The translations under genes were made by a program, and so were the position numbers. The notes below the pieces were generated by a model. That model had not been told where the DNA came from and did no database searches. It saw only the letters and a program-made list of their open reading frames with translations. This document shows positions 39,914 to 49,752 of a stretch of 64,000 nt of DNA, one piece after another. Numbering within the stretch: the stretch's first letter is position 1; each line of letters opens with the position of its first letter. Origin of the DNA: Neoaquamicrobium microcysteis (GTDB lineage: Bacteria > Pseudomonadota > Alphaproteobacteria > Rhizobiales > Rhizobiaceae); the NCBI RefSeq assembly GCF_008180155.1, contig NZ_VSZS01000062.1, forward strand, positions 1 to 64,000. Reading direction: 5' to 3'.

Positions 39914-41569
39914 ATGAAATTCTATAAAAGCAACGGCAACCGTGTCCCCGAGCACATCGAAAAGCTCGCGGCGGACACGAAGGCCGGGAAGCTCGACCGC
40001 CGCGAATTCCTCGCCATGGCAAGCGCGTTCGGCGCCTCCACGGCGATGGCCTACGGCATGATCGGACTGGCTGCGCCGACGAAGGCGCTGGCGCAGGAAG
40101 AGCCCAAGCGGGGCGGGGTCATCAAGGTTGCGATGCCGATCAAGGATCCCAAGGATCCGCGCACCGCCGACTGGTCCGAGATCGCCAATGCCGAGCGCCA
40201 GACGCTCGAACCGCTGGTCAAGTATACCCGCGATTTCACGTTCGAGCCCTACCTGCTCGAAAGCTGGGAAGTGAACGACGACGCCACCGAATATGTCTTC
40301 CACATCCGTCCGGGCGTCACCTGGACCAACGGTGACACCTTCAATGCCGACGACGTGATCTTCAACATCACCCGCTGGGCCGACCGCAGCGCCGAAGGCA
40401 ATTCCATGCCTGGCCGTCTCGGCTCGCTGGCCGACGCCGACACGGGCAAGCTGCGTGAAGGCTCCGTCGAGCGCGTCGACGACATGACTGTCCGCCTCAT
40501 CCTGAGCGAGCCCGACATCGCGCTCATCCCGAACCTGACCGACTATCCGGGCCTGATCGTTCACCGCTCCTTCGACGAGACCGGCGCCAACTTCGCACAG
40601 AACCCCATCGGCACCGGCCCGTTCGAGCTGGTCTCCTACGATGTCGGCCAGTCGGTGGTCTACAAGCGCCGCGAGACCGGCGAATGGTGGAACGGCGAGG
40701 TCTATCTCGACGGCGTCGAGTTCATCGACTACGGCACCGATCCCGCAGCCATGGTTTCGGCCTTCGAGGCGGGCGAGGTGCACACCAACCACGAGACGAC
40801 GGCCGATTTCGTGGCGATCCTCGAAGGCCTCGGCATCGAGACGTCCGAGGTCGTCACCGCATCGACAATCGTTGCGCGCACCAACGTCGCAAACGCGCCC
40901 TATGACGACCAGAAGGTGCGCCGCGCGCTCACCATGGCGGTCGACAACGCCACCGTGCTCGCACTTGGTTACGGCAATGCCGGCGAGGTGGCCGAAAACC
41001 ATCACGTCTGCCCGATCCATCCGGAATATGCCGAGATGCCCGCGCTCACCCGCGACATCGACGGCGCCAAGGCCCTGATGGAAGAGGCCGGCCAGATGGA
41101 CTACGAGCACGAGCTCATCACGGTCGACGAGGACTGGCACAAGAACACGGGCGACGCCATTGCCGCCCAGCTTCGCGAAGCCGGCTTCAAGGTCAACCGC
41201 ACGGTGCTGCCGGGCTCGACCTTCTGGAACGACTGGACGAAGTACCCGTACTCGATGACCAACTGGAACATGCGCCCGCTGGGCATCCAGGTGGTCGCCA
41301 TCGCCTACCGCACCGGCGAGGCCTGGAACGAGGCCGCCTACTCCAACCCGGATCTGGATGCCAAGATCAATCAGGCGCTGTCGATCGCCGATGCCGACGA
41401 GCGTCGCACGGTGATGGGCGAAATCCAGAAGATCCTGCAGGAGTCGGGCATCATCATCCAGCCCTACTGGCGCAAGCTCTACAACCACTCCGTCGCAGCC
41501 GTGAAGAACCATGGCATGCACCAGACCTTCGAGCATGATTTCGGCAAGGTCTGGCTGGACGAGGCCTGA
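39914..41569 (+). CDS. ABC transporter substrate-binding protein, family 5 (peptide/opine type), TAT-exported
   Basis: 551 residues from the ATG with GGGAG upstream. The signal carries a twin-arginine motif ([15 protein letters not shown]) and an Ala-x-Ala-like end at TKALAQE. The mature part has the SBP_bac_5 pattern: [20 protein letters not shown], then [20 protein letters not shown] and [14 protein letters not shown]. It binds oligopeptides, opines or similar solutes in the periplasm and delivers them to the permeases encoded next. TAT export is less usual than Sec for this family but common in rhizobia. A stable hairpin follows the stop codon. Confidence 0.93.
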
Positions 41570-41777: not shown

Positions 41778-42815
41778 ATGCTAAGCTTTATCATTCGTCG
41801 TCTCGGAACGATGGCGCTGACCATGCTGTGCCTCACCATGGTCGTGTTCTTCATGATCAATCTGGAGCCCAACCTGCGCAAGCTGTCGATCAGCCAGCTC
41901 GACATGCGTTCGTCCGACGAGCACATCGAAAGCTGGCTCGTGCGCAACGGCTATCGGGACAACTTCTTCGTGCGCTACGGCCGCTGGCTCGGCGTGGTGC
42001 AGAAGCAGCCCAACATCAACGCCGAGACGGGCGCGGTCACGCCTCGCTTCTCGTTCTGCAACGAGCCGGCCGAACCCTATTACGGCGGCATCCTGCAGGG
42101 CGATTTCGGCTGCTCCACCAAGTTCAAGACGACGGTGTCCGCCAAGCTCTGGCCGGCGCTGGCCGCAACCGGCAAGCTGATGTTCTGGGTCATGGTCACC
42201 ATGGTTCCGGTGGCGCTGCTCATAGGCATCTTCGCGGGCATGCGGGAGGGGTCTCGAACGGATCGTACCTTGTCGGTCGCGTCGATCACCACAACGGCCA
42301 CGCCGGAATATGTCTCCGGCGTCATCTTCACGGTCGTCTTCGCGTCATGGTTGGGTTGGCTCAACGGGTCGGCTGCGACGGCCACCAGCCAGGGCCTCAC
42401 ATTCTACAACTTCACCCTGCCGGTGATGACCATGGCGATCTACGGCATCGGCTACATCGCGCGCATGACGCGGGCCTCGATGGTCGAAGTCATGACGCAG
42501 CAATATATCCGCACCGCGCGCCTCAAGGGCCTGTCGTTCAACACGGTTGTCGTCAAACATGCCTTGCGCAACGCGTTGATCGCGCCCTTCACGGTCATCA
42601 TGCTGCAGTTTCCCTGGCTGCTCACCGGCGTCGTCATCGTCGAGGTGATGTTCCGCTACCAGGGCTTCGGCTTCACGCTGGTCGAGGCAGCCGGCAACAA
42701 CGACATCGACCTGCTGCTTGGCTGCTCGCTGGTCTCGGTCTTCGTCGTGCTTTTCACCCAGCTCATCTCCGACGTGGGCTACGCCTATCTCAACCCGCGC
42801 ATCCGCGTTCAGTAG
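41778..42815 (+). CDS. ABC transporter permease (DppB/OppB type)
   Basis: 345 residues with six membrane segments: one at the N-terminus (IIRRLGTMALTMLCLTMVVF), a periplasmic loop of about 110 residues that is longer than usual and contains two Cys, and five more. The cytoplasmic EAA-like loop is YIRTARLKGLSFNTVVVKHALRN, cut here into YIRTARLKGLS and VVVKHALRNALIAP, which docks the ATPase. GxxLTGVVIVEVMFRYQGFG before the last helices is also family-typical. It lies 208 bases after the binding protein and ten bases before the second permease. Confidence 0.93.
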   Translation: MLSFIIRRLGTMALTMLCLTMVVFFMINLEPNLRKLSISQLDMRSSDEHIESWLVRNGYRDNFFVRYGRWLGVVQKQPNINAETGAVTPRFSFCNEPAEPYYGGILQGDFGCSTKFKTTVSAKLWPALAATGKLMFWVMVTMVPVALLIGIFAGMREGSRTDRTLSVASITTTATPEYVSGVIFTVVFASWLGWLNGSAATATSQGLTFYNFTLPVMTMAIYGIGYIARMTRASMVEVMTQQYIRTARLKGLSFNTVVVKHALRNALIAPFTVIMLQFPWLLTGVVIVEVMFRYQGFGFTLVEAAGNNDIDLLLGCSLVSVFVVLFTQLISDVGYAYLNPRIRVQ

Positions 42816-42825
42816 GGGGCCGCGC

Positions 42826-43983
42826 ATGCAGCTCGAATATATCGGCGGCTTTCAGGTCTTCATCGGGGTGCTGTTGCGATTCTGGCCGGTCTGGATCGCG
42901 CTTGCCCTGGTGCTGGGCGCCAGCATCACCTTCAAGGCGCGGCTCGGGCTCTACGGCCAGCTGTTCAACAGCTATGTCGGCGTCGCGGGGGTGACGATCT
43001 GCCTGTTCTGGCTGTTTACCGCAATGTTCGCCTCCACCATCGCGCCGTTCAATCCGCTGGCGCAGATACTGGTGATGAAGGACGCGCTGCCCGGCGCGGT
43101 CGAGCCGCAGAGCGGGCATACATTCCTGTTCGGCGGCGACAGGCTGGCGCGCGACATCTTCTCGCGCATGGTCTACGGCAGCCAGATCGTTCTGGTGATC
43201 GCGCCCGCCGCCACCATGTTCGCACTGATGGTCGGCATCACGCTCGGCCTTCCCGCGGGTTACTATGGCGGTCGGGTGGATACGATTCTGTCCTTCCTCG
43301 CCAACCTCGTGCTGGCCTTCCCCGTCATCCTGCTGTTCTACCTGCTGGTGACACCGGGCATCATGGACACGCCGATCCCCTATGCGATGGCGGGCGTGTT
43401 CTTCCTGTTCCCGATCATCTTCTTCTGCACGCTCTTCTACACCCGCTACAGGCACCGCCCGCAACTGCTGGCGATCCAGCTCGGGGTGACTCTGCTGCTG
43501 GGCGGGTGGATTTATGCAGGCCTTGTCTTCAACGCCGACCCGCTGCGCATCATCGCGATCCGGCCGAACGAGCTGAACATCTTCGTGGCGGTTGTGTTCG
43601 CGTCTTCGCCCGGCGTCTTCCGCATCGTTCGCGGTCTGGTGATGGACATCAAGACGCGCGACTACGTGGCCGCCGCCCAAACGCGCGGCGAGAGCCCGTG
43701 GTACATCATGCTGTGGGAAGTGCTGCCCAACGCGCGCGGACCGCTGATCGTCGATGCCTGCCTGCGCATCGGCTACACGACGATCCTGCTCGGCACGCTC
43801 GGTTATTTCGGCCTCGGCCTTGCACCCGAAAGCCCCGACTGGGGCACGGCGATCAAGGAAGCCAGCCGCCTGCTGCGCTCGCACATCCACCCGGCTCTGC
43901 CGCCAACCATCGCGCTGATGAGCTTCGTGCTCGGCCTGAACCTCCTGGCCGATGCGCTGCGCGAACAGTCGCTGAAGGATTGA
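42826..43983 (+). CDS. ABC transporter permease (DppC/OppC type)
   Basis: 385 residues from the ATG after AGTAGGGGGC. The N-terminal membrane segment (WPVWIALALVLGASITF) is followed by FLFGGDRLARDIFSRMVYG, the OppC-type start of the core domain. Further helices follow, with the EAA loop DYVAAAQTRGESPWYIMLWE and VLPNARGPLIVDA. There is an extra hydrophobic pair around residues 185-245 (FFLFPIIFFCTLFYTRYRHR and the next helix), making it about 85 residues longer than a standard DppC. It forms the heterodimeric channel with the previous gene product. Confidence 0.92.
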   Translation: MQLEYIGGFQVFIGVLLRFWPVWIALALVLGASITFKARLGLYGQLFNSYVGVAGVTICLFWLFTAMFASTIAPFNPLAQILVMKDALPGAVEPQSGHTFLFGGDRLARDIFSRMVYGSQIVLVIAPAATMFALMVGITLGLPAGYYGGRVDTILSFLANLVLAFPVILLFYLLVTPGIMDTPIPYAMAGVFFLFPIIFFCTLFYTRYRHRPQLLAIQLGVTLLLGGWIYAGLVFNADPLRIIAIRPNELNIFVAVVFASSPGVFRIVRGLVMDIKTRDYVAAAQTRGESPWYIMLWEVLPNARGPLIVDACLRIGYTTILLGTLGYFGLGLAPESPDWGTAIKEASRLLRSHIHPALPPTIALMSFVLGLNLLADALREQSLKD

Positions 43984-43993
43984 GGACACGACG

Positions 43994-46750
43994 ATGAACG
44001 AAGCCGTCAAAGCCACGAACATCGAAAGCGCAGAACCCATCCTGGAAATCGAGAACCTGTCGATCTCGTTCTTCACGCGGCGAGGCGAAATCCCGGCCGT
44101 GATGGACTTCTCCTGCAAGGTCATGCCTGGCGAGGCGATGGGCATCGTCGGCGAGAGCGGCTGCGGCAAGTCCACCGTGTCGCTCGGCATCATGCGCGAC
44201 CTGTCCAACGTCGGCAAAATCGTCGGCGGGCGTATCGTGTTCAAGGGCAGGGACATGGGCGACCTGTCTGATGCCGAGCTGCGGGCGATCCGCGGCAACG
44301 AGATCGCCATGATCTATCAGGAGCCGATGGCGAGCCTGAACCCGGCGATGAAGATCGGCGCGCAGCTCATGGAAGTGCCGCTGATCCACGACAAGGTGTC
44401 GAAGGAAGAAGCCTATAAACGCGCGCTGGAAATGGTGCGCTCGGTGCGGCTGCCCGACCCTGAGCGCATCATGCGGTCCTATCCCCACCAGCTTTCGGGC
44501 GGCCAGCAGCAGCGCATCGTCATTGCCATGGCGCTGCTTTCCAACCCGGCGCTGTTGCTGCTGGACGAGCCCACCACCGCGCTCGACGTCACCGTCGAGG
44601 CCGGCATCGTCGAACTGGTCAAGGGGCTGGGCAAGCAGTTCGGCACGTCGATGATCTTCGTGTCGCACAATCTCGGGCTCATCCTCGAGACCTGCGATCG
44701 CATCACGGTGATGTATTCGGGCGAGGCGGTCGAGACCGGTTCGATCAAGGATGTGTTCGACCACATGCGGCACCCCTACACGCAGGGGCTGTTCCGCTCG
44801 ATCCCGCTGCCGGGGGCCGACAAGAATTCGCGCCCGCTGATCGCCATTCCAGGCCAGTTGCCGCTGCCGCACGAGCGGCCGAAGGGCTGCAATTTCGGCC
44901 CCCGCTGCCACCACTTCAAGCCGGGGCTTTGCGATGCCGCGGAGATCCCGATGATCGAGGTGGAAGGGCACGAGCGGCATTTCAGCCGTTGCGTCCGCTT
45001 CGACGAGATCGACTGGACCGCGCTGCCGGAAGGCGCGAAGACCGAGAAGGAAGCGGTCAAGCCCGGCGCGCCCGTGCTCAAGATCGACAACCTCAAGAAG
45101 TACTATCAGGTCGCCGCCAATGCGATCTTCGGGGGGGCCGAGACGCGTACCGTCAAGGCCAACGAGCAGATCAGCTTCGAAGCGCGCGAGAGCGAAACCG
45201 TCGCCATCGTCGGCGAAAGCGGCTGCGGCAAGTCCACGCTCGCAAAGGTTCTGCTTGGGCTGGAGACGGCGACGTCGGGCACGGTCTCGCTCGGCAACAC
45301 GCAGATCGGAGGCACGCCGGTCGAGGATCGTGGCACCGACACCGTGTCCGGCATCCAGATGGTGTTCCAGAACCCGTTCGACACGCTCAATCCCAGCCAT
45401 TCGGTCGGCTCGCAGATCATCCGGACGCTCGAGAAGTTCAAGATCGGCAACACGGTTGAGGAGCGAAAGCAGCGCATGTTCGAGCTGCTGGACCTCGTCA
45501 AGCTGCCCCGCGCCTTCGCCGAGCGGATGCCGCGCCAGCTTTCCGGCGGGCAGAAACAACGCATCGGCGTCGCCCGCGCCTTTGCCGGCAACGCCAAGGT
45601 CGTGGTGGCCGATGAGCCTGTTTCCGCGCTCGACGTGTCGGTGCAGGCCGCCGTAACCGAGCTGCTGATGGACATCCAGCGCAAGAACAAGACGACGATG
45701 CTGTTCATCAGCCACGACCTGTCCGTGGTGCGCTACATCGCAGACCGCGTGGTCGTCATGTATCTCGGCCACATCGTCGAGCAGGGCACGACCGACCAGA
45801 TATTCTCGCCGCCCTACCACCCCTATACGGAGGCTCTGCTGTCGGCGATCCCCATCGCCGATACGAGCGTGGTCAAGAAGCATATCGTGCTGGAGGGCGA
45901 TATTCCGTCCGCCATGAACCCACCGCCTGGCTGCCCTTTCCAGACGCGTTGCCGGTGGAAGAAGTTCGTGCCGGGCGACAAGTGCGAGACGCAGGTGCCG
46001 CCGCTCAAGGACCTTGGCAACGGCCACAGGAGCCTGTGCTGGCTGGACGACGAGCAGCTTGCAACGATGGAGCCGGTCATCAGCTTTGCCGGCGCGCACG
46101 AGCCCGACCCGGCCACCGAGACGCCGACCGCTTCGGCTCCGCGCAAGGCGGTGAGGGTGCGGGCCGAAAAGCCCGCCGCAGCCTCGCCGGCAACCCCCGC
46201 CCAGGCGCTCAAGGCAAAGGCGGCGCCGAAGGCGAAGGCATCGAAGGCGATGGTTGGCCAACTTGGCGATTCATCGCCGGAGAAGTCGCTTACCGAGGCG
46301 GGTGAGGGGCGTCAGGCCGCCAGCGCGGAGGTCGCGCCTGCAACGGCCGGAACGCCCAAGGAAAGCGCTGCGGCAGAGGGGAAAGTCGTACCGCCGCGCC
46401 GTAAGGTGCAGGTTGCCCGTTCTACCGAGGCGGCAAAGGTTTCCATGGGGGTTCCCCATGCCGAGGCAGGCGAAAAGGGCCGTCCGACAGGCATTGCGAG
46501 GCCAAAGAACCCGGACGATCTGAAGCTGATTTCCGGCGTTGGGCCGAAGCTCGAAGGCGTGCTCAACGGGCTCGGCATCTACACTTACGCGCAGGTAGCC
46601 TCGTGGAAGAAAGCCGAGCGCGACTGGGTCGACGGCTACCTGAAATTCAGCGGCCGGATCGAGCGGGACGACTGGGTCAGGCAGGCCAAGGCGCTCGCCA
46701 AGGGCGGCAAGGCCGAATACATCCGCGTCTTCGGCAAGAAGCCGCGATAG
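43994..46750 (+). CDS. Double ABC ATPase (DppD-DppF fusion) with NuoE-like C-terminal tail
   Basis: 918 residues, GAGGA before the ATG. First ATPase: Walker A GESGCGKST at 53-61, signature LSGGQQQR, Walker B LLLLDEP, and an oligopeptide-type Cys motif (GPRCHHFKPGLC). Second ATPase: Walker A at about 407, LSGGQKQR, VVVADEP, and another Cys motif (PFQTRCRWKKFVPGDKC). From about 695 the chain is a low-complexity Ala/Pro/Lys/Glu linker. The last ~80 residues (from NPDDLKLISGVGPKLEGVLN) form a helix-hairpin-helix-like module ending in RVFGKKPR, which I recognise as the C-terminus of rhizobial NuoE (complex I). It energises the importer; the role of the tail is unknown. Confidence 0.93.
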   Translation: MNEAVKATNIESAEPILEIENLSISFFTRRGEIPAVMDFSCKVMPGEAMGIVGESGCGKSTVSLGIMRDLSNVGKIVGGRIVFKGRDMGDLSDAELRAIRGNEIAMIYQEPMASLNPAMKIGAQLMEVPLIHDKVSKEEAYKRALEMVRSVRLPDPERIMRSYPHQLSGGQQQRIVIAMALLSNPALLLLDEPTTALDVTVEAGIVELVKGLGKQFGTSMIFVSHNLGLILETCDRITVMYSGEAVETGSIKDVFDHMRHPYTQGLFRSIPLPGADKNSRPLIAIPGQLPLPHERPKGCNFGPRCHHFKPGLCDAAEIPMIEVEGHERHFSRCVRFDEIDWTALPEGAKTEKEAVKPGAPVLKIDNLKKYYQVAANAIFGGAETRTVKANEQISFEARESETVAIVGESGCGKSTLAKVLLGLETATSGTVSLGNTQIGGTPVEDRGTDTVSGIQMVFQNPFDTLNPSHSVGSQIIRTLEKFKIGNTVEERKQRMFELLDLVKLPRAFAERMPRQLSGGQKQRIGVARAFAGNAKVVVADEPVSALDVSVQAAVTELLMDIQRKNKTTMLFISHDLSVVRYIADRVVVMYLGHIVEQGTTDQIFSPPYHPYTEALLSAIPIADTSVVKKHIVLEGDIPSAMNPPPGCPFQTRCRWKKFVPGDKCETQVPPLKDLGNGHRSLCWLDDEQLATMEPVISFAGAHEPDPATETPTASAPRKAVRVRAEKPAAASPATPAQALKAKAAPKAKASKAMVGQLGDSSPEKSLTEAGEGRQAASAEVAPATAGTPKESAAAEGKVVPPRRKVQVARSTEAAKVSMGVPHAEAGEKGRPTGIARPKNPDDLKLISGVGPKLEGVLNGLGIYTYAQVASWKKAERDWVDGYLKFSGRIERDDWVRQAKALAKGGKAEYIRVFGKKPR

Positions 46751-46837
46751 GCGACCGGATTTCGATCACATTTCGCGTTCGCGGGAACTTCGCGGGCTCC
46801 ATTGGGATTGGCTTGGTCCAACCCGATGGAGAATCTC

Positions 46838-47923: not shown

Positions 47924-48210
47924 GGGCCGAACGTTAGAACATCGGCGTAAATTAAAGCTTTCGCTTGATTTTAACGAATAGGGCCGCGAAGCGGCGAAAG
48001 ACCCGCCCGGTATCATCTCCAGTTACTCGAATCCGGTAACCTCGGATCGTCGAGGCTCGGGTCAGTGAGTGAGGTAGTGTAGATATAGCGACGTGATGTG
48101 TCGTATATTTATTGCTGGCCGGTTGTGTATTGCCGCCTCTTCTAAAATCGCGCCGGCAAAGGACGCATTTCCAACATCGCTGCATGCTGGGCGGCGTAAC
48201 CTCTCATGTC
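47924..48210. other. Divergent intergenic region
   Basis: About 290 bases between the SLT lipoprotein (minus) and the MttB-like gene (plus). The middle (48060-48110) is AT-richer than its surroundings (GTAGATATAGCGACGTGATG, then TCGTATATTTATTGC) and should hold the promoters; I cannot assign boxes with confidence. The frame of the MttB-like gene is open through part of it. Confidence 0.4.
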
Positions 48211-49752
48211 ATGAATGCCGAACCTCGCCGCCGCCGCTCCACCGACCGCGCCGCCCACAAGCGGCCGGCCGCGATCCCGCAGCTCGCAATGACCCATGCG
48301 CGCAATCCGTATCCGCCGATGCGGCTGCTGTCCGACGATCAGCTCGAGGCGATCCACGAAGCCGCGATGCACATTCTGGAGAATTTTGGCATCGAGATGA
48401 TGAGCCATTCGGCGCTCGACCTTTTCGCCGGCGCAGGCGCGAAGGTGGACCGGGCGGCGCAGACCGTGTTCGTCGACCGGGGGCTGGTGGATCAGGCGCT
48501 AAAGACGACGAAGTCGGCCTACCAGCTTACGCCGCGCAACGCCGAGAAGGCGGTTCCCATCGGCGGCGATGCGATCAGCTTTACGCTCGTTGCCGGCCCG
48601 CCCAACGTGCACGACATGGAGCGTGGCAGGCGGGCGGGCAACCACAAGGACTATTGCGACCTGATCCGGCTGGCGCAGCATTTCAACTGCATCACCATGC
48701 TGGGCAACCAGGTGTGCGCGCCGATCGAGCTGCCGGCCAATTCGCGCCACCTCGACACCTATTTCGCCAACCTGACGCTGACCGACAAGAGCTTCCACGT
48801 CTCGGCCATCGGCCGGGGCAGGGCGCTGGACGGGATCGCGATGATGGCTATCGCGCGCGGGCTTACGCTGGACAAGATGCGGGACGACCCGGCTGTCACG
48901 ACGATCATTTCGGTCAATTCGCCCCGCCGCTTCGACGACCAGATGGCGGACGGGCTGATGACGATGGCGGAGCACGGCCAGTCGGTCGCGGTCACGCCCT
49001 TCACGCTGATGGGGGCGATGAGCCCGGTGACGCTGGCCGGTGCTCTGGCGCAGCAGAACGCTGAGGCGCTGGCGGGCATCGTGCTGACCCAGCTGGTGCG
49101 GCCCGGCGCGCCGGTAATGTACGGGGCGTTCACGTCAAATGTGGACATGCGTTCCGGCGCGCCGGCGTTCGGCACGCCCGAGAACACGAAGGCCAACGTC
49201 GCGTCGGGGCAACTCGCCCGGCGCTACAACCTGCCTTACCGTACCACGCCGGGCTCGGCTTCAAATGCCGCCGACGCGCAGGGCGCCTACGAGACGATGA
49301 TGGCGCTGTGGGGCGCGGTGCTGGGGCACGGCAATCTGGTCTACCACGCGGCGGGCTGGCAGGAGGGCGGGCTGACGGCTTCCTACGAGAAGTTCATTCT
49401 CGACGTCGAGATGATCCAGCACATGATGGAGTTTCTGCGGCCGATAGAGGTGAACGAGGGGGAGCTGGCGCTGGACGCGCTCGGCCGGGTGCCGACCGGC
49501 GGGCACTTCTTCGGCGACCCGCACACGCTGGAGCGCTACTCGACTGCCTTCTACCAGCCGCTCGTTTCCAACTGGCAGAACTACGAAAGCTGGCAGGAGG
49601 CAGGCGGGCTGAACGCCACGCAGCGCGCGACCGGCCTATGGAAGAAGGCGCTTTCGGAATACGAGCAGCCGCCGATGGACGAGGGCGTGCGCGAAGGGCT
49701 GGACGAATATGTCGCAAAGCGGCGCGAAGAGATCGGGGCGGGCGAGCCGTGA
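48211..49752 (+). CDS. MttB-superfamily (trimethylamine/betaine-type) methyltransferase without pyrrolysine
   Basis: 513 residues from the ATG at 48211 (earlier ATGs in frame are less convincing). MttB features: YPPMRLLSDDQLEAIHEAAM near the start, then VAGPPNVHDMERGRRAGNHK, TTIISVNSPRRFDDQMADGL, and the Gly-rich C-terminal half with LGHGNLVYHAAGWQEGG. The gene runs to its TGA without an in-frame TAG, so pyrrolysine of true TMA methyltransferases is absent, as in glycine-betaine methyltransferases. It would transfer a methyl group from a quaternary or tertiary amine to a corrinoid protein, which is not encoded nearby. The downstream DMGDH-like gene supports a methylated-glycine route. Confidence 0.88.
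   Translation: MNAEPRRRRSTDRAAHKRPAAIPQLAMTHARNPYPPMRLLSDDQLEAIHEAAMHILENFGIEMMSHSALDLFAGAGAKVDRAAQTVFVDRGLVDQALKTTKSAYQLTPRNAEKAVPIGGDAISFTLVAGPPNVHDMERGRRAGNHKDYCDLIRLAQHFNCITMLGNQVCAPIELPANSRHLDTYFANLTLTDKSFHVSAIGRGRALDGIAMMAIARGLTLDKMRDDPAVTTIISVNSPRRFDDQMADGLMTMAEHGQSVAVTPFTLMGAMSPVTLAGALAQQNAEALAGIVLTQLVRPGAPVMYGAFTSNVDMRSGAPAFGTPENTKANVASGQLARRYNLPYRTTPGSASNAADAQGAYETMMALWGAVLGHGNLVYHAAGWQEGGLTASYEKFILDVEMIQHMMEFLRPIEVNEGELALDALGRVPTGGHFFGDPHTLERYSTAFYQPLVSNWQNYESWQEAGGLNATQRATGLWKKALSEYEQPPMDEGVREGLDEYVAKRREEIGAGEP

Follow-up and report, generated by a model that had tools for sequence, protein, structure and literature searches.

We analysed a 64,000-nucleotide window of Neoaquamicrobium microcysteis (assembly GCF_008180155.1, contig NZ_VSZS01000062.1, positions 1 to 64,000), with attention to a gene for a double ATP-binding cassette (ABC) ATPase whose product ends in a tail resembling the C-terminus of the NADH dehydrogenase subunit NuoE (Table 1). 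The open reading frame (ORF) starts with ATG, is intact and encodes 918 residues, and its coordinates were confirmed. Pfam models identified two ABC_tran and two oligo_HPY stretches, and the dipeptide ABC ATPase model NF008453 scored 565 bits, over a cut-off of 408. Together with genes for a solute-binding protein and two permeases upstream, these domain pairs mark a double ATPase of a peptide-type importer, in agreement with the initial annotation. Against the GsiA equivalog model NF007613 the protein scored 498.7 bits, below the 1077-bit cut-off.

Table 1. Features of the double ABC ATPase gene and of the transporter genes upstream of it.
Feature	Position	Strand	Basis
Double ABC ATPase of the peptide importer type (918 aa), carrying a linker and a C-terminal module	43994..46750	+	ORF, Pfam, NF008453
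C-terminal module with its RP..P lead-in, residues 829-918	46478..46747	+	NF009040 tail match; AF2 model
Homology core of the module, residues 838-918	46505-46747	+	NF009040
Stretch aligning in DNA with the nuoE 3' end of this genome, 90%	46480..46751	+	blastn 244/272; borders
Linker, residues 696-828; 133 residues with 34 Ala and 14 Pro	46079..46477	+	Composition
Conserved linker motif GDSSPEKSLTEAGEGRQAASAEV (GDSxPEKSLTEAGEGRQAASAEV)	46265..46333	+	Kept in orthologs with and without tail
Family 5 solute-binding protein, same transporter	39914..41569	+	SBP_bac_5, E 1.3e-68
Permease subunit 1, OppB/DppB type	41778..42815	+	BPD_transp_1, E 2.2e-31; Opp2B-like, below cut-off
Permease subunit 2, OppC/NikC type	42826..43983	+	BPD_transp_1, E 3.7e-17; NikC-like, below cut-off

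The tail carries the module that closes NuoE in this genome. On their own, residues 838-918 matched the C-terminal end of NF009040, 'NADH-quinone oxidoreductase subunit E' (profile positions 321-400 of 400; E 1.9e-41, 143.1 bits); weaker matches of the 81-residue tail were to models of L21, phasin PhaH and S2. The cut-off for a whole NuoE protein (514 bits) was not reached, the remainder of the protein being an ABC ATPase. The nuoE gene of the same genome (L002) encodes 416 residues and matches NF009040 over its full length (E 7.7e-182), and its tail is 95% identical in protein to that of the ABC ATPase. Chance is excluded as the source of this likeness, and the NuoE-like tail first recognized from the sequence pattern is confirmed. 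In DNA, the alignment of the two genes runs through 46751, one base past the stop codon (blastn). Beyond the module, ungapped identity falls to 0.40-0.53 upstream and 0.17-0.33 downstream (four congeners). An extra C-terminal stretch beyond the core, GG.AEY..VFGKKPR, is shared by the window protein with the NuoE of its genome; it is present in 24 of the 34 ABC tails collected (see below), missing from nine and altered in one (G056).

A survey of other proteins for the module, as the initial annotation had suggested, found it on LivG, L21, S2, cytochrome c1 and GlnQ-type ATPases. Within the genome under study, the matches besides NuoE were a 197-residue protein (60%) encoded about 2 kb from nuoE, a LivG-type ATPase (56%) and L21 (40%). 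We refer to the 197-residue protein as phasin-like, a label of which we are unsure because the PhaH model match covers chiefly its linker and tail. The copy at the C-terminus of the LivG-type ATPase (L004:277-1749; LivG model 329.8 bits, cut-off 362) is more distant. A profile search of the genome added one further match only (E 0.6), and a match inside a solute-binding-protein-like sequence (L006, E 0.158) was taken as spurious, being internal and absent from the profile search at E <= 1. Across the class, 8 of 86 sampled genomes, this one included, had a module match at E <= 1e-10. Among the loci examined, L21, S2 (identified by eye) and NuoE-like proteins carry the module, as do small proteins whose N-terminus looks hydrophobic by eye. 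Two such small proteins (L106 and L221) hold two tandem copies. One cytochrome c1 (G046, L238:3357-4688; Cytochrom_C1, E 3.7e-92) ends in a complete NuoE-type tail; apparent Rieske and cytochrome b genes lie upstream of it (by eye). At the N-terminus, the module occurs in GlnQ-type amino-acid ABC ATPases of G046 and G011 (L236:137-1507, L237:1112-2230; 319 bits each, cut-off 379). Importer ATPases of three kinds (the window protein, LivG-type and GlnQ-type) are thereby among the carriers. Within the family, the tail matched strongly in 136 of 218 genomes, and the matches listed lay mostly in NuoE-length frames.

This range of carriers bears on two early proposals, that the tail couples the importer specifically to complex I, or that it serves as an assembly or degradation tag. 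The NuoE tail is indeed the nearest copy in the genome, and the second carrier near nuoE would fit the former idea. Because L21, S2, cytochrome c1 and ATPases of the LivG and GlnQ types carry the module as well, a role specific to complex I is very unlikely. An assembly or degradation tag is equally hard to credit, since the C-termini of the ABC tails vary, unlike those of a tag that is read at its last residues. Of the suggestion of a mobile interaction module or recruited tail, the mobility on unrelated carriers stood, and the specific coupling to complex I did not.

The AlphaFold2 (AF2) model of the module had a mean predicted local distance difference test (pLDDT) score of 89.7 and a predicted template modelling (pTM) score of 0.78. 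Its structural neighbours, all weak, were NusA acidic repeats (the top three) and the helix-hairpin-helix (HHH) of Y-family polymerases. The hairpin of the tail (GVGPK) resembles HHH; the tail stayed below the Pfam gathering scores for HHH_5 (13.8 versus 27 bits) and HHH (12.3 versus 24). As the hairpin is HHH-like and the tail basic, the main rival to a protein-docking function is binding of nucleic acid, by which the carriers would be tethered to DNA or RNA; the helix-3-turn-helix part of FEN-1 and the HHH of Y-family polymerases would be parallels. We regard this as possible, but doubtful. No role involving nucleic acid is known for respiratory or importer subunits, the hairpin lysine that is near-invariant across the aligned ABC tails is replaced by valine in this genome's LivG and L21 tails, and NusA acidic repeats are protein-binding domains.

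The distribution of the tail was followed among orthologs of the ABC ATPase. At E <= 1e-180, orthologs were found in 30 of 81 family genomes (one per genus) and in 4 of the 8 genomes of the own genus. From a scan of named genomes, the best 80 of 325 relatives were retained. After removal of six same-genome repeats and four identical cores, 113 loci were reduced to 103, and 34 of these distinct orthologs bear the tail, two of them frame-disrupted. In these two (L034, L063), the frame is broken before or inside the tail, through either sequencing error or ongoing loss. Recurrence of the same architecture in separate assemblies, among them Mesorhizobium sediminum, Nitratireductor arenosus and the complete genome of Mesorhizobium sp. 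AR07, rules out an assembly artefact joining two genes; we found no point in its favour, and its probability is negligible. Judged by coordinates, the congeners G002 and G005 are Mesorhizobium sediminum KCTC 42205 and Aquamicrobium sp. LANL01G, respectively.

On the tree of the ATPase cores, the tail state changes at least 13 times, compared with 29 in shuffles, a count that cannot separate gain from loss. Loss appears the likelier direction, because 8 of the 11 rows nearest the root (placed at the midpoint) bear the tail and because tail-less Aliihoeflea proteins retain the linker to about the expected start of the module. The tail is found in Mesorhizobium sp. AR07, Root102 and dw_380 and is absent in relatives 91-93% identical to AR07 in aligned DNA. 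A NuoE tail match was missing from 3 of 18 tail-less genomes (G067, G043, G022) and from 1 of 34 tail-bearing ones (G060, 88% complete), numbers too few for a conclusion. Recent capture within the own genus is disfavoured, the flank before the module being alignable among the ABC orthologs. No tail match at E <= 1e-3 was found in 50,697 phage records, and PHROGs gave four matches at only E 0.026 to 0.33. Eight plasmid records matched the tail, of which six are large replicons from Sinorhizobium, Shinella or Rhizobium, and no plasmid record covered 80% of the whole gene (megablast). An MTTB-family methyltransferase (48112-49752; E 2.9e-196) is encoded by the third gene after the ABC ATPase on its downstream side.

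Constraint was estimated as the ratio of nonsynonymous to synonymous divergence (omega) in 11 hand-chosen ortholog pairs, some with high synonymous divergence (dS). Omega ranged from 0.02 to 0.38 in the tail, from 0.10 to 0.61 in the linker and from 0.02 to 0.16 in the ATPase core; the tail value exceeded that of the core in eight pairs, equalled it in two and was lower in one. Exchange with nuoE, described below, may reduce the apparent divergence of the tail. These values bear on the view that the tail is a passenger, that is, recombination-prone coding DNA that becomes attached to the ends of genes and is tolerated there, having no function on the ABC ATPase. The repeated changes of tail state, the two disrupted frames among 34 tail rows and the variable ends would be in keeping with it. 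Nevertheless, the omega of the tail does not exceed 0.17 in 8 of the 11 pairs, tail identity in the same pairs is 0.71-0.99 versus 0.27-0.91 for the linker, and three kinds of importer ATPase bear the module, so we judge a passenger improbable.

The linker was initially described as of low complexity. This is apt for its Ala/Pro-rich stretch; it does not extend to the motif within it, which tail-less relatives keep as well. In a search of 20 relatives the motif had four matches, each at the ABC ATPase gene (one in the genome under study and one each in G002, G005 and G006), and it is possibly a short binding motif in its own right. Residues 692-839 form neither helix nor strand in the full-length AF2 model. 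The quality of that model was too low for use (mean pLDDT 41), and it is weak evidence on the linker.

What is new in this analysis is that the NuoE and ABC tails are more alike within than between genomes, third codon positions included. Both tails were compared in 33 genomes (G060 lacking a NuoE match), and the within-genome excess was present in protein, at codon positions 1+2 and at position 3. With one genome drawn from each of 19 clades, the median p was 0.001 for each of the three measures, and the excess in protein and at third positions persisted without the own genus. As controls, 20 more LivG tails and 20 more phasin-like tails were taken from the slightly more than 20 listed of each. 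Neither the NuoE-LivG nor the NuoE-phasin-like comparison (17 clades each) gave a third-position excess, and genome-wide codon or composition bias is rejected at these positions as the cause of the likeness. NuoE and LivG tails did show a small excess in protein (0.014, median p 0.003), against 0.001 (median p 0.48) at third positions; the NuoE-phasin-like and LivG-phasin-like pairs had no comparable protein excess.

In the DNA tree, the ABC tail stands beside its own NuoE tail in G062 (97/90) and G240 (88/88), and the ABC tails of G000, G002 and G005, all of the own genus, fall into one group with the NuoE tails of these three genomes (92/89), while that of the congener G006 falls outside this group. 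Monophyly of the ABC tails was rejected by the approximately unbiased (AU) test (p 0.011 for DNA, 0.025 for protein, where the tree has few columns), which disfavours a single vertical origin without exchange. The two genes are not neighbours: they lie on different contigs in the own genome and 0.76 Mb apart in G002, and where they share a contig the distance is 0.16 to 1.7 Mb, the latter in G071. The within-genome likeness at third positions, the clean controls and the rejected monophyly together indicate that sequence has been exchanged between the nuoE and ABC tails, most simply by gene conversion. One observation weighs against this: for 16 of the 33 genomes, a protein ranking against the NuoE tail puts the ABC tail of that genome lower than tenth. 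Exchange is accordingly occasional.

We propose an explanation to which, as a whole, we assign a probability of about 0.55. The NuoE-type tail would be an autonomous, mobile HHH-like domain; in an ancestor, the double ABC ATPase gene would have gained, behind a long linker, a copy of the 3' end of nuoE. That copy would then have been lost several times, have remained under purifying selection where retained and, in some lineages, have been homogenised with its nuoE counterpart in that genome, ectopic gene conversion being the simplest route. As a tethered docking domain, the module would bring complex I, the cytochrome bc1 complex, importer ATPases and the ribosome to a common partner or place; transport itself would not need it. 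Of this account, the identity of the tail, its borders, distribution and constraint, and the exchange signal with its controls rest on computation, whereas loss as the direction, conversion as the mechanism and the docking function are inferred. We infer that a flexible docking module is the most likely nature of the tail because the domain is compact, follows a long linker, occurs at either end of unrelated carriers and is conserved while the linker drifts. The several kinds of carrier, the constraint and the exchange between distant loci suggest a reusable functional part.

Covariation of NuoE and LivG tails in protein without a third-position signal is what a shared partner, rather than DNA exchange, would be expected to produce. 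That a single hub protein or structure binds the module on complex I, bc1, the reaction centre-light harvesting 1 complex (RC-LH1), importer ATPases and ribosomes in part of the alphaproteobacteria is a speculative and rather unlikely extension. If true, binding to the hub would place or regulate energy supply, nutrient import and translation together, and the two-copy proteins L106 and L221 would be candidates for such a hub or scaffold. In Rhizobium leguminosarum, post-translational inactivation of ABC importers is linked to the nitrogen-related phosphotransferase system (PTS-Ntr; PMC3665714), which would be a candidate setting for such a docking tag. The ABC ATPase is an easy carrier on which to test docking, as close relatives are naturally tail-less and removal of the tail spares respiration.

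Among known systems, the oligopeptide ABC ATPases GsiA and PRK11308 have ABC_tran and oligo_HPY twice per chain, like the window protein; the additional linker and module set the latter apart, as does its score below the GsiA cut-off. NuoE proteins with a C-terminal extension (NF009040/PRK12373) end in the same module, through the final GKKPR, which is there joined to a NuoE domain and here to an importer ATPase. The NusA acidic-repeat domains (1wcn, 6ib8, 4mtn; 6ib8 being, by its title, a complex with SuhB) are 15-19% identical to the module, with Z scores that permit a common arrangement. The C-terminal domain of Protein-O in the RC-LH1 of Dinoroseobacter shibae (8yy9 chain O) belongs to the same family as the tail (phmmer E 3.8e-20). 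Its authors saw the likeness to NuoE C-termini and termed the function obscure, and the passages considered name no importer ATPase as a relative (PMC12079452). Among the open-access titles and abstract openings listed, none mentions this tail on an ABC ATPase, which is no proof of its absence in print. Protein-O is a membrane-anchored small subunit of a photosynthetic core, whereas the carrier in the window is an importer ATPase.
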